Assembly (NCBI GenBank): GCA_029433475.1
Contig: JAQTIE010000007.1
Span: 310,001-374,000, forward strand
Length of the DNA stretch: 64,000 nucleotides
Origin: Neisseriaceae bacterium ESL0693
GTDB lineage: Bacteria; Pseudomonadota; Gammaproteobacteria; Burkholderiales; Neisseriaceae
Direction of reading: 5' to 3'
Shown: positions 11,144 to 51,200 of the stretch, in pieces
Layout of the letters: every line of letters starts with the position of its first letter
How positions within the stretch are numbered: the stretch's first letter is position 1
Translations under genes and position numbers: made by a program
Notes under the pieces: model-generated
What the model was told of the DNA's origin: nothing
The model's database searches: none
The model's input: the letters and a program-made list of their open reading frames with translations, nothing else

Positions 11144-12670
11144 CTAATTTTCTTTATCCTGAGTGGCGCTAGGCATATTGCCCAATGCGCGATTAACGGC
11201 AGCGTAGGCCTGTAATACTTCATACTGACTATCGGCCAGAGCGGTACGGGACTGGATATAGTTACGCTGGCTATCAAGCACATCAATAAAACTGGTCATA
11301 CCGCCCTCAAATCTTGCTTTAATTAATGTCCATGCGGTAGCTGCACTTTTCGCCCGTAACGCCTGTTCCTGCCACTTCTGGCGAGCTGCGGTATAACGAC
11401 TTAATGTATCATCAATCTCCTGCCACGCCTGTAATACGGTTTTGTGAAAATCAACCGCCGCCTGCTGTTGTTCTATTTTGCGTAATGTAACCACTGATTT
11501 ACGTTTACCAAAATCAAATAGCGGCAGATCAAGGCTTGGACCAATAGACCAAGTGCGGCTACCCCACTCACCAAATTTATTTGACTGGTAGGTGTCATAA
11601 CCGAAGCGTCCGCCTAAGGTGATATTTGGATAGAGTGCGGCAGTGGCAATACCGATGCGGGCAGTAGCGGCATGCAGTTTCGCTTCCGCGGCCTGAATAT
11701 CCGGCCGGTTTCGCGCCACCTCAGCCGGCAGACCTGCAGTGAGTTCGGGTAAAGGTGGCAAATGATCCAGTGGCAATGGTTTTGCTGTCAGTTCCTGTTG
11801 CAGGCTGCCCGGTTGTTCACCCAACAGCAGTAGCAGTTGGTTCATTGCCTGACTTTCCTGTTTACGAAGATCAATCAGTTTACTTTTAATGGATGCAAGT
11901 TCGATATTCTGTCTCTCCTTAACCGTGTCATCCAGTTTGCCATGCGCATTTTGTGCGGTGATGATATTCAGGCGTTCCTGTACTGACGCCACATCCTCTT
12001 CTGTCAGTTGCATATCCTGCTGAATATTCCGCAAAGTAAGGTATTGATTGACTACTTCCGCCACAATGCTCAATTGTGCCTGTGCTAATAGTGCCTGTTG
12101 TGTCTTTATATCGGCGCCACTTGCTTCTATGGAGCGGCGTACATGCCCCCATAAATCAACTTCCCATGAGAAGTTAACACCAGACTGATACCAGCTATAA
12201 GGTTGCCCGATAATATTCAATAGTTTGTCCGGATGATCATAAACACTATTGACCATACGCGAGGTGGAGCCATCCTGACTCAGTTTTTCGCGGCTCACTT
12301 TGCCGGATAAACTCACTTCGGGCAGCCGTGCAGCACCCACCTGCCCGGCCGCTGCCTTTGCGGCAGCAAAATTCAGGGCAGCAGTCTGCAAATCCGGATT
12401 TTTTTTCAAGGCATGATGTACCAGCTGATTTAATACTTCATCATGATAAGCTTCCCACCAGACAGGATTCATAGCGGGCGCTGTCTTAACTACTGCCTGC
12501 AAAGAAGCGTCACCACTGTGTAATGCCGGCCATTCTTGCGGCGCCATCAATTGCGGTGTTTTAAAATCGGGTCCGACACTGCAACCCGTGACTGCGACGA
12601 CCAGAATAACCCGCTTTATAGATAAAGTCAGTGGTTTAACACGGTTAAGGAACAGATTGAGTAGCATCAT
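11144..12670 (-). CDS. NodT-family outer-membrane efflux lipoprotein
   Basis: A 508-residue TolC-like outer-membrane factor. The lipobox V-A-V-T-G-C puts the lipidated Cys at about residue 30, followed by S-V-G-P-D-F and P, typical of the NodT/OprM class. Two OEP repeats (about 85-280 and 300-495) include N-F-S-W-E-V-D-L-W-G and the R-P-D-I-Q-A-A-E-A-x-L motif. It gives the exporter its outer-membrane exit duct. It lies 12 bp after the second permease and is the last gene of the five-gene operon. Confidence 0.92.
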   Translation of the reverse strand: MMLLNLFLNRVKPLTLSIKRVILVVAVTGCSVGPDFKTPQLMAPQEWPALHSGDASLQAVVKTAPAMNPVWWEAYHDEVLNQLVHHALKKNPDLQTAALNFAAAKAAAGQVGAARLPEVSLSGKVSREKLSQDGSTSRMVNSVYDHPDKLLNIIGQPYSWYQSGVNFSWEVDLWGHVRRSIEASGADIKTQQALLAQAQLSIVAEVVNQYLTLRNIQQDMQLTEEDVASVQERLNIITAQNAHGKLDDTVKERQNIELASIKSKLIDLRKQESQAMNQLLLLLGEQPGSLQQELTAKPLPLDHLPPLPELTAGLPAEVARNRPDIQAAEAKLHAATARIGIATAALYPNITLGGRFGYDTYQSNKFGEWGSRTWSIGPSLDLPLFDFGKRKSVVTLRKIEQQQAAVDFHKTVLQAWQEIDDTLSRYTAARQKWQEQALRAKSAATAWTLIKARFEGGMTSFIDVLDSQRNYIQSRTALADSQYEVLQAYAAVNRALGNMPSATQDKEN

Positions 12671-36557: not shown

Positions 36558-36646
36558 ATGAGCCATTTAGTAAAAAACCAGTATTTTTTCCATTAAAACA
36601 CTTGGCAAAAACGGTAATTTACCTTATTATGCTCACCTTCAAAGAC

Positions 36647-36737
<91 letters not shown>

Positions 36738-36774
36738 AAAAATGATTTAAAATCAAAGTATTAATTAATAAATT

Positions 36775-36814
36775 CCTTGTTCTAGATTCCCGTCTGACAA
36801 GGTTTTTATTTTTT
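36775..36814 (+). terminator. Terminator after tRNA-Ser(TGA)
   Basis: CCTTGT (36775-36780) pairs with ACAAGG (36797-36802), 16-nt loop, followed by TTTTTATTTTTT. Confidence 0.7.
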
Positions 36815-37732
36815 GGTGTGTCATATTTGTGCCGTGCATGGCTTCACTTTCCCAACCTCCCCGCTTTTCCAAATCCATTATCGCTACGTCCGATTAAACC
36901 AAAAAAGAAAAAGGACAATGTGGTTAGGATTATTTAATGGATAAAAAGCGCTTGAAGCGAAAAAATAATAACTGAAACGACACTTATCGTTCCTGATGAA
37001 TGCCTGATACTACAAACTACAGAAAAATGATTACTCACCGTGTACTGTCAATGGCTACTAAAAGCCATCGGTAGCAAACGTCATTGTCATCCCTAAAATT
37101 TACAATGCCCTATCTAAAGTCCATTGCCCACTATACTGAATTGGTGAACAATCTCCTGCTTCGAAAAGTTATCATCAAGCGTATTCAGGAATAGTACTTA
37201 AACATGGACTTGAAATCATGGTTTATCCGTTAAAATTTCACTCATCTTATTTAGTCCTTATGGGTAGTTTATCCAAAAAACATAGCCTACAGGAAGATCT
37301 TTCGACAGCTTGATATTGCCTATACTGCGCTGATTCATGACATTGATAAACTGGCTGTAGATATACCCTTTGAACATATAGATGGTGATATATGCAAAAA
37401 GCGTTTTGAAACCTTATATATCATAGCCGTAAAGATAGCAGTTACAGCATTTGGACATTTCCGGTTGAATATTCCCAGAACACCAAAAGTGCATGGATAA
37501 TGATTTAATAATCCGACCATACTTATTTCCAATATTATTTATAATAATCCTTATTTACACATTATTATCAATTCGAACAATACACCGTTTTCACAATCAA
37601 CAGAAAAATGGTCGATCTGATCTAAAAAATAATCTATTAATCCCTGTTTAAAATTATCATCAATATAGAGTACCAGTTACTCTTTTATCGGCAGTAAATA
37701 ATATAAACGCTCAATCCTAAACGATTTAATAA
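36815..37732. other. Non-coding left edge of the island
   Basis: About 920 bp with no supported gene. A plus-strand frame at 37303-37500 is open for 66 codons without a start (…I-A-Y-T-A-L-I-H-D-I-D-K-L-A-V-D-I-P…) and could be a decayed gene. No integrase or insertion-sequence ends recognised. Confidence 0.4.
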
Positions 37733-37759
37733 CAAAATGAAACATTTTGTATAGATAAT
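37733..37759 (+). promoter_or_regulatory. Possible operator and -10 of the acyl-transfer operon
   Basis: CAAAATG-AAA-CATTTTG (37733-37749) is a perfect 7-bp inverted repeat, next to GATAAT (37754-37759). It lies 75-100 nt before the chosen start. It is a candidate site for the AraC regulator of the same island; that link is inference. Confidence 0.35.
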
Positions 37760-37833
37760 GAACTTAATTGTTATTTTTTTATTTTCTCCAAAAATTAAAA
37801 TTACGTCGTTTTGTATATTTAATGAGCTTAGTG

Positions 37834-40800
37834 ATGAAAGAAAGGCAAAGAATACTAGCGTTGCATGGACAAGGGAGTTCTAGTGACGTAACCAGAATAC
37901 AATTTTCGAATCTTAAAATAAATCATGATGATTATGATATATTTTTTCTAGATGCAGCTTATGTCGTTAATCAGCCAGGGTTTGGATTAAATGATTTGAG
38001 CCTTGAAGAATATCGATCTTGGATTATTTATGAGAACTTTGATAATTCATTATTGGACTCTATAGAATATATTCTTCGTTTTATTCATGAAAACGATGAG
38101 TTTGATATTGGCTATGGTTTTAGTCAAGGTGGAATAATAGTAAGCATAATTAATGAATTATATTTGAATGATGAATTAAAGAAATTGCTTATTGCCAAAT
38201 TTGGAGAGTCTGTTAAAAGGATATTGCCAAATAAACCTTTGTTTAAAACTATTATAACTTGTTGTATTGCAAGTGAGTTAACATTAGAAAATTGGGTTTC
38301 AAAGAAATATTTATTACAAAAGAACATGGATGACAATGTTACTTTTTTAAATTTAATTGGCAGGGAAGATAAATTCAAGAGCTGGGCGGAAAATTTTTCT
38401 CATCGATCCCGCAATACTCAAATAATTTATATGTCATCAGGGCATGAGATCAATAATGAAACAAATGGTAATGTTTCTCTGGCATTACATGGGCTATTAG
38501 AAAATAAGCCCGTTATAAAACAATCTTATTCTAACTGGACTAAAACTAATCTGATAAGCGACAGAAGAATATCCGAAAAGCATCAGATTGTTGAAGTCAA
38601 ACTTGATTTGGCTGATTCTCCTCAAACAATTAAAGAGGCTTTATCACTTTATCCATTTGAGTATCCTCTGCTTCGTAATGCTAGAGATAAGGATTCATCC
38701 AATTTCACATCTTATGGCGATATGCTTGAGTTTTGTAATATAAATGGAGAAGGTGACCTAAGAAGAATAGGTGTAAAAACAGGTGATCTTGTCGCTTATG
38801 TGGCTCCGCCAGGTGGTGGGGCACTATCCGCCGCCGCTTTTATTACCATATCCTCTCAAGCAACGGCTGTTCCATTATCTGCTACAATGAGTGAAAAAGA
38901 TGCTCTAATTGCATTAGAACAACTTGAAATCAATCATTTAATATTATTTCAAGGTGTTTCTGCACACGGAATAGAATCTGCTTTCAGAAAATATACAGAA
39001 AATAATACTGTTGCGTTACATGAAGCTTTTCCGATAGGAGATTCAAAACCAGGGCTTTTCAGGTTCAAAAAAACCGTTGAGAATTATGAGTTACTGCCTG
39101 AAATTGTTCATCCAGCAGAAGCAGACAGTTTATTGTTACGTACCTCTGGAACGACATCTCTTTCCAAGATAGTTCCTTTGGCTCAGATTGACTTGATTAA
39201 AAATTCAATTGTTTTAGCCAATTCCTTAGGTATTGATCACAATGATGTAACTTATAGTGTGATGCCTCTGGACCATATCGGCGGGATTGCTGGGTCTATT
39301 TTATGTAGTATAGTCTCTGGCGCTTCAATTACATGCGATGCTACGTACAATCCGGAATTGATGATTAGTGCTTTAAGTGAATCAAATCCAAGGCCAACCT
39401 GGTATTCAGCAGTACCTACAATTCATAATGCCACAATTAAGTATTTACTTGATAATAAAGAAAAATATTTAAAAGTATCAGATAGCTGGCGTGACCATAA
39501 TTTAAGGTTTATTCGCTCGGGTGCCGCATCATTAAGTGAACCAGACAGGCTTTTACTCAGTAATACCATTGGTCGTCCAGTCATTGCTACCTATAGTATG
39601 TCTGAATTGATGCCTATTTCACAACCACCATTTATTAATGGTGACTGGATCATTAAAAGTGATTCTGTTGGAATGCCCGTTACTGCATCCTTGTGTGTTG
39701 TTGATCCTGTTACATTACAGCCACTTCCTTATGGAGAGGTGGGAGAAGTAGCTATTTCAGGTGAAACATTATTTAAAGGATATAAACATAATGATGATGC
39801 TAATAAAATGGCTCATTTTTATATGAAATTCTTAATTGATGGGGAATATGCAAAGTGGTTTCTTACCGGCGATCTAGGGGTAATTGATGAAGATGGATAT
39901 TTAACATTAAAAGGACGAATAAAAGAACTTATTAAAAAAGGTGGAGAGCAAGTAGTTCCAATTGAAATAGAAAATATTCTTGCAGAACATCCTGCTTTAG
40001 AATTAGCAGTGTGTTTTTCTGTGCCTTCTGATTTATATGGTGAAGAAGTTGGTTGCGCATTAATTGTCAAAGATTATTTTTTAAAAGAAAAATCACAACA
40101 GGAAATTGTTGCTGAATTGAGAAAAATCTTGATGGATTCGGGCATAACTCAATATAAAATACCAACTTGTTGGAAGTTTGTGGTAGCTGAAGATCTTCCT
40201 TTTACCAATACCAAAAAAGTTGTTAGGGGTAAAATTGCTTCAAGTTTGACCGTAAAACCAGGTATAGCAGCTACAGCAAAGTTTTTAGCTAAGCATAAAA
40301 ACCTAGATAAAGCAAAAACTATAAATAACTCGGAAAAATTATCAACGGTAAATGTGACTGGTTACCATCATAACGTCGATTGGGATACTTTATCCGGACT
40401 AAGATTTCTTTTAGCTTGTTATGTGATGTTTATGCACATAGGCTCTAATAGTTCTTGGGGTACTTTTTCTAATTTACGGCTGATTCCGTGGCATGTGCAT
40501 ACTTTTTTTACTTTGGCTGGTTTTTCATTAGCTATAGTAATGCCTTCTTTAATCCAAAAGAAACTTAATTTTTCATTCATGAAAATAATTGGTTTCTACC
40601 CATTGTATGCTCTTGCAGTACTGCTGGCGTTTGGAAATTTATTAACCGTTTGTACCCCAGCAACCTTTACCCCAACGTTTCATTGGGCACAAGTCATTGC
40701 TGACAATCAAGCAGGCTTTTGTGAGGGAACGCCATTAATTCAAGGTTCCTGGTTAGGAAATGTTATATCTACATTAATCATTTATCTAACAGGACTACAA

Positions 40801-42099
40801 GCAACGCCATTGTGGGGAGCATCATGGTTTGTCGGTTTTTATTTATGGTTTATTTCAATGTATATGCAGTGCGTTCTTGTATTTCCATTTATTTATAATG
40901 TACTTTATAAAAATAAAGGAAAGATAAAACGCCTATTATGTTTCATTTTTATTGGATTAATCATTAATTTGGTTGTGGTGTTAGGTTTTTGGTTTGGATT
41001 TGCTCAAAATGCCACAGGATATGGTTTCTTTGATCGAATGACTGGTGAAATCATTTCTCCCTCACAGGAAACAATGAACGCCGCAGGTAAAGATAACGCT
41101 ATTATTCTTGGATTTTATTTATTTTCACCTTTTTGGATGGTTTACTTTGTATTGGGTATTTGTGGCGCCTTTTTATATGATGCCATTCAGTCAAAATATA
41201 TATTCAGAAAGAAATATTTTGGTGTAATAGCCGATACCATTACCAGTATTTTGATTATAATAAGCATATTGTATATTACTCAGGGATATACCTCATTGAG
41301 TGACCATACATCAATATTTTCAATAGAGAAAAATATACTCAGACCAGATGGTGCCAATTTGCCAACTGACCCTGCGGTAGTTAACCGTATATGGGATAAT
41401 ATTTCAGGTAGATTATTGGCTCCGTTAACTTTAATTTGGATACTGGCTCTGACAACAGGTGAAGGGTTAACAGCTCGAATTCTAAAAACGCGAGTTTTTT
41501 CCAGAGTTCTCGGACCCACAGCATTTGGTTGTTTCTTATTTCATCAGATTATAGGCCAATGGTATTTTTCTATTACTCGAAATGGTAGTTTGTGGAATTG
41601 GTGGGGCTATCAAAAGGACTACTATTGGTTCAGTCCTCAGCCTTTACCAGTAGAATGGTATGAGTATTTTTATGTTGTAGGGCTTGTTGTTCTTTTTGCC
41701 AAATTAGTTCTTCCTTTAGACTTAGTTATTAGGAAGATAATTAAGAAACTCATAGATTGCGGCAAGTTTATTATTTCTCCTTTGGAACAGGATGTAATGA
41801 ATCAAAAAACCAATGTAAATGATGAAAAATTTATAGAAAAAACAGTTAAAGAAAGCATATACAAAGTTACTGGCTTAGAAGTAGAATCTCAGTGGAGTCT
41901 AAATGATTGTGGTATTGCCTCATTAGGATTAATACAATTAGTTAGCCAACTGAATAATACCTTCTCTGGTAACGATACAGAATTAAATTTAAAAATCGCT
42001 GATGTATCAGAATTAAAAAATGTTGATGATTTAATATCTTTAATATCAACAGGTATCAAAGCAAAAACCGATGTTATCATTAATCAAGTGGAGGTTTAA
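37834..42099 (+). CDS. Four-domain protein: FSH1 hydrolase + acyl-activating (AMP-forming) + acyltransferase-3 + carrier protein
   Basis: 1,421 residues from ATG 37834 (GAG 7 nt upstream; ATG 37822 and TTG/ATG at 37768 are alternatives). Domain 1 (1-230): serine hydrolase of FSH1 type, I-L-A-L-H-G-Q-G-S at the start, G-Y-G-F-S-Q-G-G (Ser about 97), Asp about 179 in G-R-E-D, His about 204 in G-H-E. Domain 2 (about 265-800): ANL adenylation, L-L-L-R-T-S-G-T-T (433 on), A-T-Y-S-M-S-E, F-L-T-G-D-L-G, L-K-G-R-I-K-E-L-I-K-K-G-G-E, and a catalytic-Lys tail (P-F-T-N-T-K-K). Domain 3 (about 850-1290): acyltransferase 3, about ten membrane segments, R in L-S-G-L-R-F and H in M-F-M-H. Domain 4 (about 1320-1415): carrier protein, probable pantetheine Ser about 1363 in D-C-G-I-A-S-L-G. 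Likely activates an acid, loads it on its own carrier and transfers it at the membrane. Substrate and acceptor are unknown. Confidence 0.85.
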   Translation: MKERQRILALHGQGSSSDVTRIQFSNLKINHDDYDIFFLDAAYVVNQPGFGLNDLSLEEYRSWIIYENFDNSLLDSIEYILRFIHENDEFDIGYGFSQGGIIVSIINELYLNDELKKLLIAKFGESVKRILPNKPLFKTIITCCIASELTLENWVSKKYLLQKNMDDNVTFLNLIGREDKFKSWAENFSHRSRNTQIIYMSSGHEINNETNGNVSLALHGLLENKPVIKQSYSNWTKTNLISDRRISEKHQIVEVKLDLADSPQTIKEALSLYPFEYPLLRNARDKDSSNFTSYGDMLEFCNINGEGDLRRIGVKTGDLVAYVAPPGGGALSAAAFITISSQATAVPLSATMSEKDALIALEQLEINHLILFQGVSAHGIESAFRKYTENNTVALHEAFPIGDSKPGLFRFKKTVENYELLPEIVHPAEADSLLLRTSGTTSLSKIVPLAQIDLIKNSIVLANSLGIDHNDVTYSVMPLDHIGGIAGSILCSIVSGASITCDATYNPELMISALSESNPRPTWYSAVPTIHNATIKYLLDNKEKYLKVSDSWRDHNLRFIRSGAASLSEPDRLLLSNTIGRPVIATYSMSELMPISQPPFINGDWIIKSDSVGMPVTASLCVVDPVTLQPLPYGEVGEVAISGETLFKGYKHNDDANKMAHFYMKFLIDGEYAKWFLTGDLGVIDEDGYLTLKGRIKELIKKGGEQVVPIEIENILAEHPALELAVCFSVPSDLYGEEVGCALIVKDYFLKEKSQQEIVAELRKILMDSGITQYKIPTCWKFVVAEDLPFTNTKKVVRGKIASSLTVKPGIAATAKFLAKHKNLDKAKTINNSEKLSTVNVTGYHHNVDWDTLSGLRFLLACYVMFMHIGSNSSWGTFSNLRLIPWHVHTFFTLAGFSLAIVMPSLIQKKLNFSFMKIIGFYPLYALAVLLAFGNLLTVCTPATFTPTFHWAQVIADNQAGFCEGTPLIQGSWLGNVISTLIIYLTGLQATPLWGASWFVGFYLWFISMYMQCVLVFPFIYNVLYKNKGKIKRLLCFIFIGLIINLVVVLGFWFGFAQNATGYGFFDRMTGEIISPSQETMNAAGKDNAIILGFYLFSPFWMVYFVLGICGAFLYDAIQSKYIFRKKYFGVIADTITSILIIISILYITQGYTSLSDHTSIFSIEKNILRPDGANLPTDPAVVNRIWDNISGRLLAPLTLIWILALTTGEGLTARILKTRVFSRVLGPTAFGCFLFHQIIGQWYFSITRNGSLWNWWGYQKDYYWFSPQPLPVEWYEYFYVVGLVVLFAKLVLPLDLVIRKIIKKLIDCGKFIISPLEQDVMNQKTNVNDEKFIEKTVKESIYKVTGLEVESQWSLNDCGIASLGLIQLVSQLNNTFSGNDTELNLKIADVSELKNVDDLISLISTGIKAKTDVIINQVEV

Positions 42100-42100
42100 T

Positions 42101-42760
42101 ATGAAAAAAATAGCTGTAATACTTTCAGGATGTGGATATTTGGATGGTTCAGAAATCAGAGAATCTGTTTTAACGCTTTTGGCTTTAGATACTCTAAAAG
42201 TACAATATGATATTTTTTCTTTGAATGAAGATCAATACCATGTCGTTAATCATCTGACAGGTAATATACAGGATAATGAAAAGCGAAATATTCTAGAAGA
42301 GTCAGCTAGAATTGCCAGAGGTAAAATTGAGGATCTTACTAAAATTAATGTTGATCATTATTCTTCATTAATTATTCCCGGAGGATTTGGCGTTGCTAAA
42401 AATCTTTGTGGCTTTGCTTTTGATGGCATCAATGCAAAAGTGAATCCTGTTGTTTTAAAAGTTATTCATGAATTTTATGCCGATAAAAAACCTATTGGCG
42501 CGATATGTATCTCACCTGCCTTAATTGCATTATCTTTAGGAGTTAATAAACCCAGTATTACTTTAGGAAATGATGACAATCTAGCAGATGAAATTGAAAA
42601 AACAGGGGTATCACATCATAAGTGTCATACAGCAGATTGCATCATTGATGAGAAAAATAAGATAGTCACAACACCTGCTTATATGGATGATGGTATCAAT
42701 TTAGCAGATGCGTATCAAGGAATATCAAAATTGGTTAAAGCAGTTATTGAGCTATCTTAA
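42101..42760 (+). CDS. elbB: ElbB-like DJ-1/PfpI superfamily protein
   Basis: 219 residues from ATG 42101, which has a perfect GGAGG inside the end of the previous gene; only one base lies between stop and start (TAATATG), so translation is coupled. ElbB/ES1 features: K-K-I-A-V-I-L-S-G-C-G-Y-L-D-G-S-E-I-R-E-S, I-I-P-G-G-F-G-V-A-K-N-L, nucleophile elbow A-I-C-I-S-P-A (Cys about 134), S-I-T-L-G-N-D. E. coli ElbB is a weak glyoxalase of unclear role. As the partner of the four-domain protein it may handle a reactive carbonyl, but that is conjecture. Confidence 0.88.
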   Translation: MKKIAVILSGCGYLDGSEIRESVLTLLALDTLKVQYDIFSLNEDQYHVVNHLTGNIQDNEKRNILEESARIARGKIEDLTKINVDHYSSLIIPGGFGVAKNLCGFAFDGINAKVNPVVLKVIHEFYADKKPIGAICISPALIALSLGVNKPSITLGNDDNLADEIEKTGVSHHKCHTADCIIDEKNKIVTTPAYMDDGINLADAYQGISKLVKAVIELS

Positions 42761-42785
42761 TTTTTGAGTATTAGCTAAAAAACTG

Positions 42786-42821
42786 ATCTAACAGTTACTT
42801 TTTTAAAAGTGACTGTTAGAT
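42786..42821. terminator. Two-way terminator at the convergent junction
   Basis: ATCTAACAGT (42786-42795) pairs with ACTGTTAGAT (42812-42821), extended inward by ACTTTT/AAAAGT, about 17 bp with one bulge. T-rich on the right and A-rich on the left, between elbB (+) and the PPTase gene (-). Confidence 0.75.
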
Positions 42822-42908
42822 TATTTTAATTAAGTGATTTATCCGTATAATTCTTAACTATCTGATCCATAGAGATTGTTTCAATAAATATTCTTTACTA
42901 TTTATCAC

Positions 42909-43586
42909 TCAGTTTTCTAAAACCAATGTTAATACAGTTTCTTCAAAAATATCAAAAAAAACATTGATTACCCTATTTATACACCACTTTTCGCTGATCG
43001 TTGACATGATCTTAAAGCTCAATATATCACTATAATTGATCAAACAAATATTCTTAAAATCAAAATAACATCCAGAATTTTGGTATATGGCTTTAAAAAT
43101 AGATTCTTTTGCTGAAAAAATAATAGTCGAATACAGTTCTCGATTATAATTGAACATTGATTTGGGTCTGTTTTCAAAAAATTCAGGTTCGTTGAATATG
43201 AGTTCTGCTACAGCATTACTTTGTTCTGTATTCATTATTGTTTCAATATCTATACCCACAGTACCATAATAAAATGTACTACAGATACACACAGCAATCA
43301 TTTTTTGAGTATGAGAAATCGAGCCTGTTATTCCTGGTGGCCATCTTGGAGTTCCATCCATATTTAAAGTAGGTATATTGACACTCCCGTAATTTAATTT
43401 ATTTAATAGGTGTCGTGTACAAACTCTACCACAAATAAATTCTTTTCTCCTTTTGGGTCTCATATTTGAGACTTCATTTAATGACTCAAAAGTTTTTAAT
43501 GTTTTATAAAAATCTATAGAACTGATTTTATCAATTTCAGTTATTATATAAATAATATTTTTATACTTAAAATATTTATATGGCAT
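42909..43586 (-). CDS. 4'-phosphopantetheinyl transferase (Sfp/EntD-like)
   Basis: 225 residues from ATG 43586; the open frame reaches 43697 but would overlap the AraC gene by 100 bp. Motifs: R-K-E-F-I-C-G-R-V-C-T-R (about 46-57), G-T-P-R-W-P-P-G-I-T-G-S-I-S-H-T, the metal-binding V-G-I-D-I-E, and F-S-A-K-E-S-I-F-K-A (about 158-167). It adds phosphopantetheine to carrier proteins; the obvious client is domain 4 of the facing four-domain protein. It starts 8 bp after the AraC gene, so they are co-transcribed. No clear ribosome site. Confidence 0.9.
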   Translation of the reverse strand: MPYKYFKYKNIIYIITEIDKISSIDFYKTLKTFESLNEVSNMRPKRRKEFICGRVCTRHLLNKLNYGSVNIPTLNMDGTPRWPPGITGSISHTQKMIAVCICSTFYYGTVGIDIETIMNTEQSNAVAELIFNEPEFFENRPKSMFNYNRELYSTIIFSAKESIFKAIYQNSGCYFDFKNICLINYSDILSFKIMSTISEKWCINRVINVFFDIFEETVLTLVLEN

Positions 43587-43594
43587 AATTAATT

Positions 43595-44401
43595 TTATTT
43601 TGTGTTTTTTAAATCCCTGGGCGTTAATCCAAAATATAATTTGAACCTCTGCGAAAAACGGAGTGAAGATGCATAACCAACCTGCTCGGAGATGCATTCA
43701 ATAGATAAATTCGTTGTTTGCAACAGGTGGATGGCTTTTCCCATTAGGATTTTTTCCTTTATTTTCTGGATATTTTCACCTTCTGATTTTAGTTTTCTAT
43801 ATAAAGTTGATTCACTCATACAGATTTTTTTGCAAATTTCGGCAGTCGTTATTTTATTATTTTCTCTGAATAAACTACTAACTTTTTGGGTCGTTTCTTT
43901 GTAATTAGGTAAATAACCCAAATTTTCATATCCCATAGAAATTAAAAATTTTATGATTTCTATTCTCCTGCCTTCAAGTATTTCTTGGGGAGCCCAATCA
44001 AGCATATCTATAAATTGCAGCACACATTTACCTAGAGAATCATTGATTCTACCCGTTGTATAACCTTCGTATTTATTCTTTTCAGGTTTGAAAGGTAAAT
44101 TATAGAAATCAGAAAATTCAAACTCTATCAGTAAGGCCAAGTAATTAGAATTACTTGGTATGTTTCTCATATTGACAGATTGCATATTCGTAAAAAAAAT
44201 AAATTCGCCCATATTACAGGCAAGCTTTGTTTTATTACCTATAATTTTATGCCCATTCAATATGATTATCAGTAGAGGTTTTAATATAGGCATATTTAAC
44301 AATATTTGTCGTTTTTTTGAGCAATAAGTAGAAATACAAGGATAGGAATTAATTACATCATTTAAGCTATTAAGTTTATTCGCTATCTTGTTAATCATCA
44401 T
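43595..44401 (-). CDS. AraC-family transcriptional regulator
   Basis: 268 residues from ATG 44401 (AGGG 5 nt upstream; GTG at 44407 possible). The C-terminal double helix-turn-helix (about 170-268) shows T-A-E-I-C-K-K-I-C-M-S-E-S-T-L-Y-R-K-L-K and the second HTH S-I-E-C-I-S-E-Q-V-G-Y-A-S-S-L-R-F-S-Q-R-F-K, then G-L-T-P-R-D. The N-terminal half is a sensing domain of unknown ligand. It lies upstream of the PPTase gene and probably controls the island genes. Confidence 0.9.
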   Translation of the reverse strand: MMINKIANKLNSLNDVINSYPCISTYCSKKRQILLNMPILKPLLIIILNGHKIIGNKTKLACNMGEFIFFTNMQSVNMRNIPSNSNYLALLIEFEFSDFYNLPFKPEKNKYEGYTTGRINDSLGKCVLQFIDMLDWAPQEILEGRRIEIIKFLISMGYENLGYLPNYKETTQKVSSLFRENNKITTAEICKKICMSESTLYRKLKSEGENIQKIKEKILMGKAIHLLQTTNLSIECISEQVGYASSLRFSQRFKLYFGLTPRDLKNTK

Positions 44402-45698
44402 GATCACCCTAAATGACTTTATGTATATATTTAACTTATTCGACTTTTATTCAAAACATATCGTTTTCATTAACATGTATATTGATAATATCGTAATTCA
44501 TAATTTTACTAAAGTCAAACTATAATCTTACTAAAATAAAAATAAAAAATAGTTATTTAACGATTAATAAGTCATTCTACCGTGTGGTATAACGCTGCCT
44601 CAATCATTCATGTTTAATCTGTCAAAGAGCTTGTGTTCTTACACCACCTAATTGTAGCCGTATATTTACCCATCTTCTGCTGGATGGCATCAGGTATTTA
44701 TATCAATCTATCACTTTGTTGTTTCTGTTCTACATCATTCAAATAAATCAAATTGTGCATTGTATAAGCAGTATGTAAGTCCAGTAACATTACCTCAGCT
44801 TTTATAGACAAAAAGCTTCTTTGTAAATGACCTGTAATCCTTTTGTGCCACTTGAATAGTTATGGGAAATTCCAGATTACAAACTGCCCTGTCGTACAAC
44901 AATGTGAAAACGAAGGCTGGAAGAATTAGTACAACCAAACTGAAGCCATCTTGGAGTGCCAAACCATCCGCTACTCTTAAAGATAAAAAAATGTTTAAAT
45001 ATACCGATAAATTTTTCAAAAATATAACTCCAATACATTGTTATATTTCTGATTACTCAAAAAAATATACTCTATTGTGACAGAATCAATTAGTCTTCGT
45101 TTTATCATTCAGTCAGCTGTGGTTTATACACATAATCAGGCAAAAGTTATTATTCCTTATACAAACACTGATGACTTAATATTCCAATATCAATCGTGAC
45201 TAATAACGTGTGGCCTATTGCGGTCAATCTGTTTCGCCATTATCAACATGTCCTCAGTAATTTTCAAAATCTGATAACCGACCTGATGTTATATTTTTGC
45301 CAAAAAGAATAACCCGCATATGGCAGGAAGTATCTCAATATCAAAATAAAATAATATATTGAATTAAAGTACTTAAATAGAAATTATATTCAATCCAGTA
45401 ATCAATAATCTTGATACTGAGTGCTTGTGTACTATTCCAATCCAACCCAAAGGAACTTGAAAATATCACGTAATTTATTCAAGTAATATATGGCTCACGA
45501 TAAACCAAAACAGGAAATACCAGTAAATCATCATTTAAAGGCATGTCGTTAAATTAAATTCTGATTGAAAAAAAATTGATATACAGAAATAACAAATGTT
45601 TTATATTTATTCTACCATGTATAAAAATAAATATAATTCATTGATATTTAAATATAAATAATTAATTTTCAATCTATACAAATAATAATAGAGGTTTT
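44402..45698. other. 1.3-kb spacer with a possible multiply frameshifted remnant
   Basis: No intact gene supported. On the minus strand from 45019 to about 44620, three short frames follow one another with shifts: …Q-V-A-Q-K-D-Y-R-S-F, then E-V-M-L-L-D-L-H-T-A-Y-T-M-H-N-L-I-Y-L-N-D, then D-A-I-Q-Q-K-M-G-K-Y-T-A-T-I-R. They read as pieces of one decayed protein of unknown family. The rest is A+T-rich with no recognised element. Confidence 0.3.
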
Positions 45699-46478
45699 AT
45701 GACAATATTATCGAGCATACGTAAAGTATTATTTATCAGTGATGGTCAGACCAATCACTTTGCATTCGGTTTTAAAGTATTTCAGCCAGATGAGATCGGT
45801 GTTGCTATTGCCAGACCAAACTGCGAAGAACAAAGATTAATCTACATAACCGATTACACAGTTCAATTGAATACGGATAATCAATCTGCCGGAGGTACTG
45901 TTATCCTCAGCCAGCCATTGGCAGCCGGAAGTACCATTGCCATATTCAGTAAATCAGACTATGTGCAACCGGTTGAGTTCAATTCATCGCAACCGATCTC
46001 TGCCTCAATGCTTAATACCGTACTGGATCGGAATACAATTCAGATCCAACAGTTACAGGAACAAAGTCAGCGCTCCATGACTTTACCCATCACCATGGAC
46101 AGCACTTATATCTGTACTGATTTGCCAGCGCCAGAAGCAGACATGCTGATCGGCTGGAATCACAGCGCGGATAAATTGGTCAATAAAGCCGGCTTACGCC
46201 ACCAGAAAGAATACTGGACTGTGGCCGTTGCAAACATCATTGATATCCGTGATGGCACCAAACAAAAGCTTACTTTACATCAGGACACCAGACTAACGTT
46301 TAATCTGGATGATGGTGATGACCTGACTTTACTGCTGAATCCGGCACAATTTAAAGCAGAATTTCCGTCTGTTGTCTGGTTTGGTAGTGCATTGTCGCTG
46401 CAAGCGGACACGCTACACACGGTTGTACTGAGTAAAGATCAGGACATCATTTATGGCTGGTGGCAGGTGGCAGTATGA
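45699..46478 (+). CDS. Phage tail-fibre N-terminal-type protein
   Basis: 259 residues, AGAGG ribosome site. The first 125 residues follow the pattern of T7-type tail-fibre N-terminal domains: F-A-F-G-F-K-V-F, then Y-I-T-D-Y-T-V-Q-L, G-G-T-V-I-L-S-Q-P-L-A-A-G-S-T-I-A-I, V-Q-P-V-E-F…I-S-A-S-M-L-N-T-V-L-D-R-N, Q-Q-L-Q-E-Q-S-Q-R-S-M. That domain attaches the fibre to the tail. The C-terminal part lacks a fibre shaft and ends W-W-Q-V-A-V. First of three linked genes; no head, baseplate or lysis genes nearby. Confidence 0.7.
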   Translation: MTILSSIRKVLFISDGQTNHFAFGFKVFQPDEIGVAIARPNCEEQRLIYITDYTVQLNTDNQSAGGTVILSQPLAAGSTIAIFSKSDYVQPVEFNSSQPISASMLNTVLDRNTIQIQQLQEQSQRSMTLPITMDSTYICTDLPAPEADMLIGWNHSADKLVNKAGLRHQKEYWTVAVANIIDIRDGTKQKLTLHQDTRLTFNLDDGDDLTLLLNPAQFKAEFPSVVWFGSALSLQADTLHTVVLSKDQDIIYGWWQVAV

Positions 46479-46957
46479 ATCTGGCAAAACGGATCAGGCC
46501 TTTACTGGCTTTACCTGAAACCAAACTTCCATTGGAACGGCTTAATGCCAAGTCATCAGATTTAGCCATGGCTAAAGCCGCAGCAGATCAGACGGACGCA
46601 TTGGAAAAGGTCAATATTGCATTCAAATTTCAACAGACCATGTTGCCCGAAGTTTTAAAGCGTCATACGGTGCCAGTGGATGAGTTTACTGCATCATTGG
46701 CACTGAATCAGGTCAGCCTCAATGAACTACTCCAAAGCCACCGTGTTGAGGCCGATGACTTTTGTGCCGGAATGACACTGAATCAGGTAGTGCTACAAGA
46801 ATTATTACAAAGTCACACTGTACCTTCTGATCAGTTTACGGCTCAAATCCGTATGGATCAGCTGGTCATTAATGATGTCTTGCATACGACTACCACTAAA
46901 CCAGCAAAAATCACGGCCAAACTGGTCATAGATCAGATTGAACTAAAAGAAATTTAA
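46475..46957 (+). CDS. Repeat protein in the phage tail-like cluster
   Basis: 160 residues. Start overlaps the previous stop (ATGA). From about residue 45 it is built of four to five copies of a 25-residue unit with pattern x-x-x-x-x-Q-x-x-L-x-E-L-L-x-x-H-x-V-x-x-D-x-F-x-A (A-L-N-Q-V-S-L-N-E-L-L-Q-S-H-R-V-E-A-D-D-F, then T-L-N-Q-V-V-L-Q-E-L-L-Q-S-H-T-V-P-S-D-Q-F). Family unknown. The operon and coupling suggest a tail-fibre accessory, linker or chaperone. Confidence 0.6.
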   Translation: MNLAKRIRPLLALPETKLPLERLNAKSSDLAMAKAAADQTDALEKVNIAFKFQQTMLPEVLKRHTVPVDEFTASLALNQVSLNELLQSHRVEADDFCAGMTLNQVVLQELLQSHTVPSDQFTAQIRMDQLVINDVLHTTTTKPAKITAKLVIDQIELKEI

Positions 46958-47018
46958 ACCGAAATATTTAAACTTTTTTCATTATCAACCGTTTTATTGA
47001 ATCAATTAAGGAAATAGT

Positions 47019-47942
47019 ATGAACTTGAATGTACAAACACAATTTGGCGGCTTATTTAAGTTTGCAGTATATAAAGAAAAAACCAATGAACTGGTCCAGG
47101 AAACAGACTGGATGCATAATCTGGTTCTTAATCAGGGACTGGATGGTATGGCCACCCAAACCTGGTTTTATGGTTGTGCTGTCGGTACTGACAATACCCC
47201 GCCAGACCCTAAACAAAATACCTTAGGTAAGCAATATGCCTTAAATACCAGCTATACAAGTTCCACATATGGACTTTACCATCAGAATGAGGTAGCTTAT
47301 GCTTGGAAACGCAGGGTATATCGTTTCAAGGCAGGAACATTTAATAATACTGCTTTAGCCGAAATGGCCATTACCATGTCAGACAATACACCATGGAACC
47401 GGGCATTGATTACTGATGCGAAGGGTCAGCCTACCACGCTGACTATTGCCAAAGATGAATATTTAGACATCACTTGTGAAGCGCGTTGTTATATTAATCT
47501 GGAAGATGTGACCGGATTACTGGATGTGTTGGATAGAGAGGGAAAAGTAGTGCAAACACTCCAAACCGTAACCCGCCCTGCGCAATTATCACGCGGCTAT
47601 AATCTGGCCTATGATATAGAAACTTCCATGGGCAATTGGTTAAATAAAGGACTATCCATAGGTAAATCCCAGATCGGAGATGTTAATTATGTTTTATCGG
47701 GTGGATATAGTAGTAATTCAGTAACTCTGCAACCCTATGTCAGTGGTAGTTACCAACGAACAGCCGATCTATTTTTTAATCTGGATACAGCCAATAATGT
47801 CGATCTGATGTCGGCCATGACTGCGGTAAATCAGTATGTCCCTTCTTGGCAGATTGGTTTTTCTGAACCTATTCGTAAAACCAATACCCAGACGCTGACT
47901 TTCCGCGTTACTTTGTCGTGGGGGCGTTACAGTGAAGAATAA
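47019..47942 (+). CDS. Phage tail-associated protein, putative
   Basis: 307 residues with an AAGGAAA site. It begins N-L-N-V-Q-T-Q-F-G-G-L-F-K-F and contains W-M-H-N-L-V-L-N-Q-G-L-D-G-M, a form seen at the start of several siphophage/myophage tail-tip or receptor-binding proteins, and ends in a beta-rich T-F-R-V-T-L-S-W-G-R-Y. No signal peptide or transmembrane segment. With the two genes before it, it makes a tail-fibre module. Function by context only. Confidence 0.5.
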   Translation: MNLNVQTQFGGLFKFAVYKEKTNELVQETDWMHNLVLNQGLDGMATQTWFYGCAVGTDNTPPDPKQNTLGKQYALNTSYTSSTYGLYHQNEVAYAWKRRVYRFKAGTFNNTALAEMAITMSDNTPWNRALITDAKGQPTTLTIAKDEYLDITCEARCYINLEDVTGLLDVLDREGKVVQTLQTVTRPAQLSRGYNLAYDIETSMGNWLNKGLSIGKSQIGDVNYVLSGGYSSNSVTLQPYVSGSYQRTADLFFNLDTANNVDLMSAMTAVNQYVPSWQIGFSEPIRKTNTQTLTFRVTLSWGRYSEE

Positions 47943-48083
47943 ACCAATATACAGAGTAAATACAGTATTTATGTAGGCGCCAATAAATTATATTTATATC
48001 TGAATATACTTTATTAATAACGGCAATGTTATTGTAATCAGGCCTATACTGAATTAAACCATATTTGCGTTAATAATCAAATC

Positions 48084-48115
48084 AATGCCCGCTGTATAGT
48101 GATACAGCGGGCATT
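48084..48115. terminator. Perfect 14-bp hairpin between the phage module and ftsK
   Basis: AATGCCCGCTGTAT and ATACAGCGGGCATT with loop AGTG. No clean T run, but its position at the convergent junction suits a terminator. Confidence 0.55.
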
Positions 48116-48240
48116 GCCCATCTGTTAAATGGCACATTTTGATCAGAACAACAACTTTAATTTGCTAAATCGTTCATTGACCTGAATCAGATACAATACA
48201 TTTAAATTTATAATGTTGGGTCAACTGATGTTTAAACCTG

Positions 48241-51200
48241 TCAATCCTCCAGATGACTGCCTTCAGGAACCAGAACCGTTCGGCTGCCGTTATTTTCCGG
48301 CGAAGAAACGATACCATCAGCTTCCATTTGCTCCACCATGCGGGCTGCACGGTTGTAGCCAATTCTTAATTGTCGCTGTACCGAAGAAATACTGGCCTTG
48401 CGGGTTTTGACCACAATTGCCACGGCTTCATCATACAATGGATCCTGTTCCTCTTCATCATGACGATGAGGGTTTAACCCATCTTCATTGTTGCCCATCA
48501 ATACATCATCAATGTAATCCGGTTCGCCAAACTGTTTCAGATAGTCCACTACCCGATGGACTTCTTCATCGGCCACAAAAGCGCCATGAATCCGTTGTGG
48601 GTAAGCGATGCCGGGCGGTAAAAACAGCATATCACCCTGACCCAGTAAATTTTCTGCGCCCATTTGATCTAAAATGGTGCGACTGTCTATTTTACTGGAT
48701 ACCTGAAAGGCAATGCGGGTAGGAATATTGGCTTTAATCAGACCGGTGATTACATCAACACTGGGGCGTTGCGTGGCCAGAATCAGGTGAATACCGGCGG
48801 CACGGGCTTTTTGTGCCAACCGAGCAATAAGCTCTTCAATTTTTTTACCGGCGGTCATCATTAAATCGGCAAATTCATCCACCACCACCACAATATAAGG
48901 TAATTTCTGCAAGGGTTCAGGATCATCGGGCGTCATCGAGAACGGATTGGTTAAAGGGCGGCCACTGGCCTGCGCATGAGCCACTTTCTGATTGAAACCG
49001 GCCACATTACGTACACCAGCAAAACTCATGAGCCGATAACGCTTTTCCATTTCCTCGACACACCAGTTCAAAGCATTGGCTGCCAGTTTCATGTCGGTAA
49101 CCACCGGCGTCAATAGATGTGGTATACCCTCATAAATACTCAATTCAAGCATTTTCGGGTCAATCATGATTAACCGTACTTGTTCTGGCGTTGCCTTGTA
49201 CAATATCGACAAAATCATGGCGTTTACCCCGACAGACTTACCGGAGCCAGTGGTACCAGCCACCAATAAGTGAGGTGCTTTCGCCAAGTCAGTGACCACA
49301 GGTTGACCGGTGATGTCCTGGCCAAGCGCTAAAGTCAGTTGTGAATGTGATTGCTGAAAAGCCGGCGCGGTGAAAATTTCACGCACATGAATCATTTGTC
49401 GCTTGGGATTGGGTAATTCCAACCCCATACATGTTTTACCCGGAATGGTTTCAACCACACGAATGGCGGCAAAACCAAGACTGCGCGCCAGATCTTTTTC
49501 CAGATTAACCACCTGGCTGCCACGTACACCCTGTGCCGGTTCAATTTCATACCGGGTAATGACCGGACCGGCAAAAGCATCAATCACCTTCACTTTCACC
49601 TTAAATTCAGCCAGTTTCTCTTCAATGGTAATCCCATTTTCCAACAATGCCTCTTCACTTTGGTGGGCGCTGGGATCGTCTTCAGCCGGCAACAAAAGAT
49701 CCAGGCCGGGTAGACTCAACATCGTTGCCTTCTTCTGTGGCAAGGTTTCATCTGACCGGTTCAATGTATTCAACATGCGCTGACTCAGCGCGGTAGTAAT
49801 GTTGGATGAAGCTAATTTTGAACGGTATGTTGAAATAACCGAAGCAGATACCGATGGCGTAGCCTGACGCACATGCTCATCTTCTGTTGCATATTCCGCA
49901 TCAGGTTGATGCATGCTGACTGATTTCACTGCTGGTGAAGTCCGTTGGTCAGTTCGGTTCTGTGTCTTTCGTGTCTGAAAAAAATTGTTACCGGAATTCA
50001 GGTTCCTTTTTGGAAATTCAAGTGTTTTTTTTAAAGAGTCTTGTGCATCGTCAGCAGGATATTGCTCTTGCCTGTCAGACTGATCCATAGCCATATATTC
50101 CTGCCAGGATAAGGGCTCGGCCACAGTATCAGTAAAATACCCAGCTTCATCATGTTGCTGCTCTGACCAGAATGGAGATGAGGATTCAGGTGCTATTGGC
50201 GTATCTGGCCTTGGATAGAATCCGCCTGACTGATCTGGCAGACTGGTTTCAACAATGTCATTTTCAATCTGATCATCAACTGGCACCGTACCTACAGATA
50301 AAGGAGCTATCTGGTCAGCAATTGCTAAAGGCGAGGTATCCTGCTGATAAATATTCTGCTCAGGCAATGATGAATCAACCTGTTCCATCTCATGATCAGC
50401 AAAAGTCATCAATGGCTGATTGAATGAGACCGGCGCTTCTGGAACATCAGGTGACGGCTCAGACATCTGCCTATACGGTGATTCTGTCGCATCACCATTT
50501 ACCGGTACACTCTGAAACGGTGTAAAGCGTGTGGATAATGGGGACACAGCACTGGTTACAGGCATATGCATGGTCTGATGACCACGTTCGGTATGAGTAG
50601 TAGATAAAGGGGTTAATTTCATCGACATCCCTTTTTCTACCCGTGCCGCAGCCGGAATCACGCTGTCTCGTACGGTGGTACGTAAAAATTTATTTTTATT
50701 CACGGGCGAATCTGTATTGGCCAGATTGGCCAATACTTCATGTTCCGCAATCACCGCTACAGACTTTACCGCAGTTGCATTTTCTGCCTCTGTCTGATCA
50801 CGTCGTCTGGCAATACGCTGCCGCAATAAATTAGCACGAATATCTTCTTCACCAATAATTGTCGGATTCTGTGGCACCCACTTTGTCGCATCCAGTTTAT
50901 TCTCTATATTGGTTTTAATCACCGCAGATATGGATTCAGCTGTTTTCGATGTTTTTATGGCCTGAAGCTGTGCTAAAACTGCGCGTTCTGTTTGTGTTTT
51001 CTGACGCACGCGCGTTACCACCGGATCATCAATGGTAATTTCTTTAACCGTAACAGTATTTTTCTTATTTTTGGTGGCAAATAAACTGTGTTTACTCAAC
51101 TGTCGCGTGGCTTCTTCCAAAGTAATCACTTCCAATACAGGAGCTTCAGCCATAAAAGAGGCTGATGGTGAATTGTTCACCTCAGAAGCTGTATCATCTG

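Follow-up and report, generated by a model that had tools for sequence, protein, structure and literature searches.

A rare protein family that joins acid activation, a carrier and an acyltransferase-3-like membrane domain in one chain

Can a single polypeptide activate a carboxylic acid, hold it on its own carrier and pass it to a membrane acyltransferase? This question is raised by an open reading frame in a 64,000-nucleotide stretch of the genome of Neisseriaceae bacterium ESL0693 (the window; positions count from its first letter). A first-pass annotation, made from the sequence alone, had read four domains in this frame and proposed that the protein charges its own carrier and hands the acyl group to the membrane domain, with a hydrolase editing or releasing products. 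We confirmed the four domains in one frame and found them conserved together, with their catalytic residues intact. On the evidence below we consider it probable that the protein is a single-chain, membrane-anchored, self-loading acyl-transfer machine in which the carrier hands over to the acyltransferase-3 (AT3) domain. The protein and its parts are:

37834..42099, + strand: four-domain protein, FSH1 - adenylation - AT3 - carrier, 1421 aa
37834..38457, + strand: FSH1-type alpha/beta hydrolase domain, residues 1-208 (Pfam and motifs)
38701..40218, + strand: acyl-adenylating (AMP-forming) domain, residues about 290-795 (Pfam, PDB and motifs)
40390..41607, + strand: acyltransferase-3-like membrane domain, residues 853-1258
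41824..42054, + strand: carrier domain, four-helix model, candidate pantetheine Ser1363 in CGIASLG

Other possible starts of the gene are an ATG at 37822 and a TTG at 37768.

Four domains conserved in a rare family

Relatives were sought by a single scan of a species-genome collection with six peptide patterns, which misses distant members. The scan returned 13 loci at 43-52% identity, in Marinibactrum, Candidatus Thiobius, three Acinetobacter, two Pseudomonas, a Hyphomicrobiales metagenome-assembled genome, Burkholderia sp. lig30, Azonexus, Zoogloea, Aeromonas popoffii and Methylobacterium. Of these, eleven keep the whole arrangement colinear within a single frame, the Zoogloea copy is cut by a contig end and the Aeromonas copy lies in two frames. 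The order FSH1 - adenylation - AT3 - carrier occurs in a single frame in the window and in 11 other loci of three proteobacterial classes (44-49% identity to the window protein along the whole alignment). As independent genomes show the identical architecture, an assembly or sequencing fusion is ruled out. The Aeromonas frame is split inside the adenylation domain (12160-12174 of locus L026), by a sequencing error or a real break. The host of locus L016, Candidatus Thiobius zoothamnicola, is a symbiont by name, and more than one host-associated lineage may hold the family.

The family is real but rare. Among 60 relatives of the host, the protein's best match was of adenylation type (E 2.2e-59), and none reached beyond residue 831 among the matches listed. 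In 13 same-genus genomes, two of them less than 90% complete, only adenylation-type matches were found (best E 7e-19). The part from AT3 to the carrier was found in the host's own genome only among 398 genomes of the phylum (single-sequence search, E up to 1e-8) and 399 of the order (profile search). Of 119 genomes sampled from the Acinetobacter genus 3 had it, as did 1 of 249 from the Pseudomonas genus, 1 of 289 from the Methylobacterium genome's class and 1 of 144 from the Marinibactrum family. Matches outside the own genome fell in genomes whose loci were known before, and the sampled sets may share members. No NCBIfam model describes this part of the protein; it drew weak matches only, to Pks13 in 2 of the 14 members and to Wzz(fepE) in one.

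In a tree of the AT3-carrier part, one alphaproteobacterium, one betaproteobacterium and two gammaproteobacteria cluster with support 100/99. Such clustering across classes speaks for horizontal transfer. The window protein and that of L021 sit on long branches and their placement is unsure; the three Acinetobacter loci, 96-98% identical over this part, count as one. Carriage by phages or plasmids was considered and rejected: viral contigs (212 pattern matches), phage records and plasmid records held no relative of the AT3-carrier part. The whole protein matched 2331 plasmid records; in none of them did a single place cover 80% of it, and the matches listed lay mainly in the adenylation part. 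Using part of the Aeromonas copy to search E. coli genomes at the DNA level found nothing.

Pfam matches in the window protein to FSH1, AMP-forming and Acyl_transf_3 models agree with the first-pass annotation. The FSH1 domain scores 54.3 bits (cut-off 21). Its Ser97 (in GFSQG), Asp179 and His204 are invariant in the 12 full-length members, in line with the Ser-Asp-His triad that PMC7077851 gives for FSH proteins. The adenylation domain likewise keeps its key residues, with Lys445, Glu591, Asp680 and Lys795 invariant in the same 12 proteins. It belongs to the ANL enzymes, carrying, with small deviations, the P-loop, the A5, A7 and A8 motifs and the A10 Lys. The window P-loop lacks its Pro (TSLSK, 1 of 12 members) and the L016 domain has SDLG in place of GDLG. 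By sequence, the nearest solved structures in the PDB are oxalyl-CoA synthetases (CoA, coenzyme A), and in NCBIfam the domain is most like FadD-type CoA ligases, every match being far below its cut-off. Oxalate itself was considered as the acid and not adopted: the residues after A5 differ, reading MPI(S/C)QP in the family and ASH in the aligned oxalyl-CoA synthetase.

The membrane domain and the carrier

Cell-surface sugars, Nod factors and antibiotics are all modified by enzymes of the AT3 type. The window domain matches their Pfam family (PF01757) at 63.9 bits against a curated cut-off of 31, and all 14 members match it at E up to 0.1. Hydropathy gives nine regions against the ten helices, with both termini cytosolic, of the AT3 type, and the predicted model is poor there.

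We compared the donor site with 55 other AT3 domains. These came from 58 loci, a subset of the matches of two AT3 searches (the family's own L058 excluded), of which L085 and L093 gave no hit; the other 56 gave 57 rows, less a short piece from L094 and one duplicate (L040 and L061 share an identical frame). The comparison sequences are the best Pfam scorers, which biases them towards motif holders, and alignment columns were matched to named AT3 motifs by our own reading. A long AT3 frame in Methylobacterium (L097, 1190 aa) was also considered and rejected; it looks like an AT3 domain behind a spurious open frame.

The RX10H motif of transmembrane helix (TMH) 1, R857 and H868 in the window, is retained in all 14 members (Arg in 51 and His in 53 of the 55 others). 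The first position of RXXR in TMH3 is Arg in 13 members and Lys in one, Lys917 of the window (others, Arg 53 and Lys 1), and the Phe and Gly of FxxxxG are also kept. By contrast, the second RXXR position is Gly in six members, among them the window (Gly920), Val in three, Ala in two, Ser in two and Thr in one, against Arg in 50 and Lys in 2 of the 55 (the rest Gln, His or a gap). As RXXR is not preserved, we call the domain AT3-like rather than canonical AT3. Further changes are present in all 14 members: in SxxxY of TMH9 the Ser is Ala (13) or Thr (1) and the Tyr is Phe (14), against Ser in 53 and Tyr in 51 of the 55; the Asp of DxxR is Ala or Ser (Asp in 41 of 55) and the Glu of WSLxxE is Tyr (Glu in 47 of 55).

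According to simulations in PMC9833829, the second RXXR Arg of OafB (Arg74), together with Arg14, Arg338 and Lys279, contacts the 3'-phosphate of CoA. For TmAT proteins, PMC12423673 describes conserved residues that build the acyl-CoA site, with CoA entering from the cytosol and spanning the membrane; the structure of HGSNAT has the TMH9 Tyr around the mercaptoethylamine. Our alignment thus indicates that the family lost part of the CoA site, including the 3'-phosphate Arg. This loss favours a carrier-bound donor, because carrier pantetheine lacks the 3'-phospho-adenosine. Since CoA reaches through the membrane from the cytosolic side, that route could also be open to the pantetheine arm of a carrier in the cytosol.

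The carrier itself is diverged in sequence in the window and scores 15.7 bits against Pfam PP-binding, under the cut-off of 20.8. Its predicted model, examined with VIA-align, has a four-helix carrier fold with the Ser at the start of helix II, and this candidate pantetheine Ser is invariant in all 14 members. The annotation's carrier call is upheld by the fold model and falls short of the Pfam threshold.

Proposed hand-over and rival explanations

Further evidence comes from genes encoding PEBP/YbhB proteins. Thirteen loci extend upstream of the family gene, and 11 of them have such a gene just before it (L015-L024 and L026; divergent in L021); the Zoogloea locus lacks that sequence. No PEBP gene adjoins the family gene in the window island or in Methylobacterium. 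All 11 PEBPs have a hydrophobic, signal-like stretch before the domain (some at an internal start) and DPDAP, HW and HRY motifs. According to a survey (PMC8793217), YbhB genes rarely occur in conserved neighbourhoods, which makes this recurrent link notable in itself. Loci L021 and L022 have a second nearby PEBP gene without a signal-like N terminus. The window frame at 22896-23393 matches the family PEBPs, but it was rejected as one of them: it is 14 kb away, has no signal-like N terminus and by eye resembles an ordinary YbhB.

In the mechanism we favour, the adenylation domain would use ATP to activate a carboxylic acid and load it onto the pantetheine of its own C-terminal carrier, primed by a 4'-phosphopantetheinyl transferase (PPTase) encoded nearby. 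The carrier would dock at the cytosolic mouth of AT3, its pantetheine arm entering the pore used elsewhere by the pantetheine of acyl-CoA. Transfer of the acyl group would follow, probably at His868, the acceptor being at the outer side of the inner membrane. At the N terminus, the FSH1 domain may serve as a thioesterase that clears a mis-loaded carrier or releases the product, and the PEBP/YbhB protein, probably exported, may handle the acceptor or product in most hosts. The first-pass interpretation is borne out in part, by the domains, the catalytic residues, the nearby PPTase and the lost CoA-phosphate residue that favours a carrier-bound donor. The recurring neighbour genes (PEBP, AraC, ElbB, PPTase) are absent from that annotation. 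The full version, in which the carrier's pantetheine replaces CoA in the AT3 pore, the 3'-phosphate clamp is partly lost and the acyl group ends up outside on an acceptor that an exported protein of the florigen family (PEBP/YbhB) handles, is advanced tentatively, at somewhat less than even likelihood.

Several points weigh against this mechanism. The adenylation domain is CoA-ligase-like. The TMH1 Arg, likewise at the CoA phosphate in the simulations, is kept in all 14 members. The TMH9 Tyr is also changed, so the alteration exceeds the phosphate clamp, and general divergence competes as an account of it. The window copy is among the two most diverged members and its island lacks a PEBP gene. 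The predicted model (1158 residues, mean predicted local distance difference test score 56) has too unreliable a membrane part for docking to be read from it.

Three other explanations were weighed. The adenylation domain could make free acyl-CoA for ordinary use by AT3, leaving the carrier and hydrolase as a side branch or substrate tether. Its resemblance to FadD-type ligases and oxalyl-CoA synthetases and the retained TMH1 Arg and first RXXR Arg (13 of 14) fit this, as does the report in a review (PMC9558356) that the AT3 donor is acyl-CoA rather than acyl carrier protein, which would make a carrier-fed AT3 surprising. We nevertheless hold it unlikely, given the loss of the second RXXR Arg and altered SxxxY in every member, the invariant carrier Ser and the linked PPTase. 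It is also quite unlikely that the protein is a synthase resembling non-ribosomal peptide synthetases (NRPS), in which the acid sits on the carrier, FSH1 releases it in the fashion of LovG, AT3 tailors not an envelope polymer but a small molecule, and PEBP and ElbB serve in tailoring or protection. A classical NRPS would be expected to have a condensation domain, and none is among the Pfam matches of the window protein; outside Acinetobacter, no neighbour recurs beyond PEBP, AraC, ElbB, PPTase and porin. The rare, patchy distribution of the family suits such a synthase. So do three reports: AT3 proteins acylate macrolides (PMC9558356), FSH1-domain proteins in fungal polyketide clusters are likened to the thioesterase LovG (PMC10512364), and the YbhB homologues TtnL/TtmL occur in the tautomycin/tautomycetin operons (PMC8793217). 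What mainly separates this explanation from the favoured one is the acceptor.

A third explanation, confined to this genome, is that the gene might be an acquired passenger, decaying and without function. It lies behind a tRNA-Ser gene in a low-GC stretch (29-37% over 37-46 kb, against 41-48% in the flanking kilobases), its carrier is diverged, its P-loop Pro and first RXXR Arg are replaced, its island is without PEBP, and the 13 same-genus genomes hold no match better than E 7e-19. The GC content is weak evidence, however, as 55-64 kb of the window is likewise low (31-40%). With the full 1421-codon frame, the key catalytic residues kept, ElbB directly downstream and PPTase and AraC genes present, we regard decay as quite unlikely.

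How does the favoured mechanism compare with known systems? In the Dlt system, D-alanylation is carried out by separate proteins, DltA, DltC and DltB, the last of MBOAT type. The annotation's comparison with Dlt holds in its logic of ATP activation, carrier loading and hand-over to a membrane acyltransferase. It fails on the type of membrane domain: the window protein matches Acyl_transf_3 and has no MBOAT among its Pfam matches, and it also differs in being one chain with an extra hydrolase domain. Epsilon-poly-L-lysine synthetase Pls similarly joins adenylation and carrier domains to membrane spans in one protein, but in a different order, with condensation-like tandem domains and with neither AT3 nor FSH1. 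The AT3-SGNH and AT3-only enzymes of the TmAT superfamily (OafB, OatA, MdmB, CmmA) share a membrane domain homologous by Pfam, with RX10H, the first basic RXXR residue and the FxxxxG Phe and Gly in common. The family adds adenylation, carrier and hydrolase domains, changes the second RXXR Arg, the DxxR Asp, the WSLxxE Glu and SxxxY, and, unlike those enzymes, probably takes its donor from a carrier instead of CoA. VanT also joins AT3 to a cytoplasmic enzyme domain, a racemase; the available part of PMC12423673 names no adenylation or carrier domain for it. The YbhB homologue TtnL of tautomycin clusters sets a PEBP gene beside carrier-based biosynthesis (PMC8793217), whereas the family PEBPs have a signal-like N terminus and adjoin a membrane acyl-transfer gene. 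AT3 fusion partners named in the available parts of the literature are SGNH, racemase and eukaryotic NRF, with no mention there of an adenylation-AT3-carrier protein. Our searches of the open-access literature found no published system of this kind, in keeping with the first-pass statement that none with this domain order was known.

If the mechanism is true, an AT3 pore accepts protein-bound pantetheine, giving a different route for acyl groups to the cell exterior; carrier-based activation would be tied directly to acyl delivery outside, with the choice of donor genetically fixed. Bacterial PEBP proteins would gain a recurrent, testable partner.

Linked genes and genomic setting

Other features near the gene in the window are:

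36647..36737, + strand: tRNA-Ser(TGA); DNA homology ends just after it
42101..42760, + strand: ElbB-type DJ-1/PfpI protein (NCBIfam PRK11780, 292.4 bits, cut-off 180)
42909..43697, - strand: PPTase (Pfam 4PPT_N 61 bits, ACPS 37.9 bits)
43595..44407, - strand: AraC-family regulator; 12 of the 14 loci, counting the window, have a homologue close to the family gene

The ElbB gene, preceded by GGAGG at 42090, is probably co-transcribed with the four-domain gene, and ElbB is a neighbour in 6 of the 14 loci (window, three Acinetobacter, Marinibactrum, Aeromonas). The best NCBIfam match of the PPTase is EntD (62.5 bits, under the cut-off of 169); as its listed frame overlaps the AraC gene, an internal start near 43586 is more likely. 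A PPTase gene is near the family gene in 5 of 14 loci (window, three Acinetobacter, Azonexus), and a porin-like gene in 4. In Acinetobacter and Marinibactrum the porin-like outer-membrane protein is encoded after the family gene (L017 14351-15358; L015 14551-15558; Porin_4, tested on L020).

DNA homology to three same-genus stretches ends at 36743-36755, just past the tRNA-Ser. No repeat of the tRNA end of at least 16 bases, as expected of an attachment site, was found within 36600-48500. Just past the low-GC stretch, at 45699-47942, are three open reading frames without Pfam matches that look tail-fibre-like by eye. The genes behind tRNA-Ser(TGA) vary within the genus: in L111, the stretch inspected, this position holds other accessory genes, with a large frame (2624 aa) that is exoprotein-like and smaller ones that are cargo-like.

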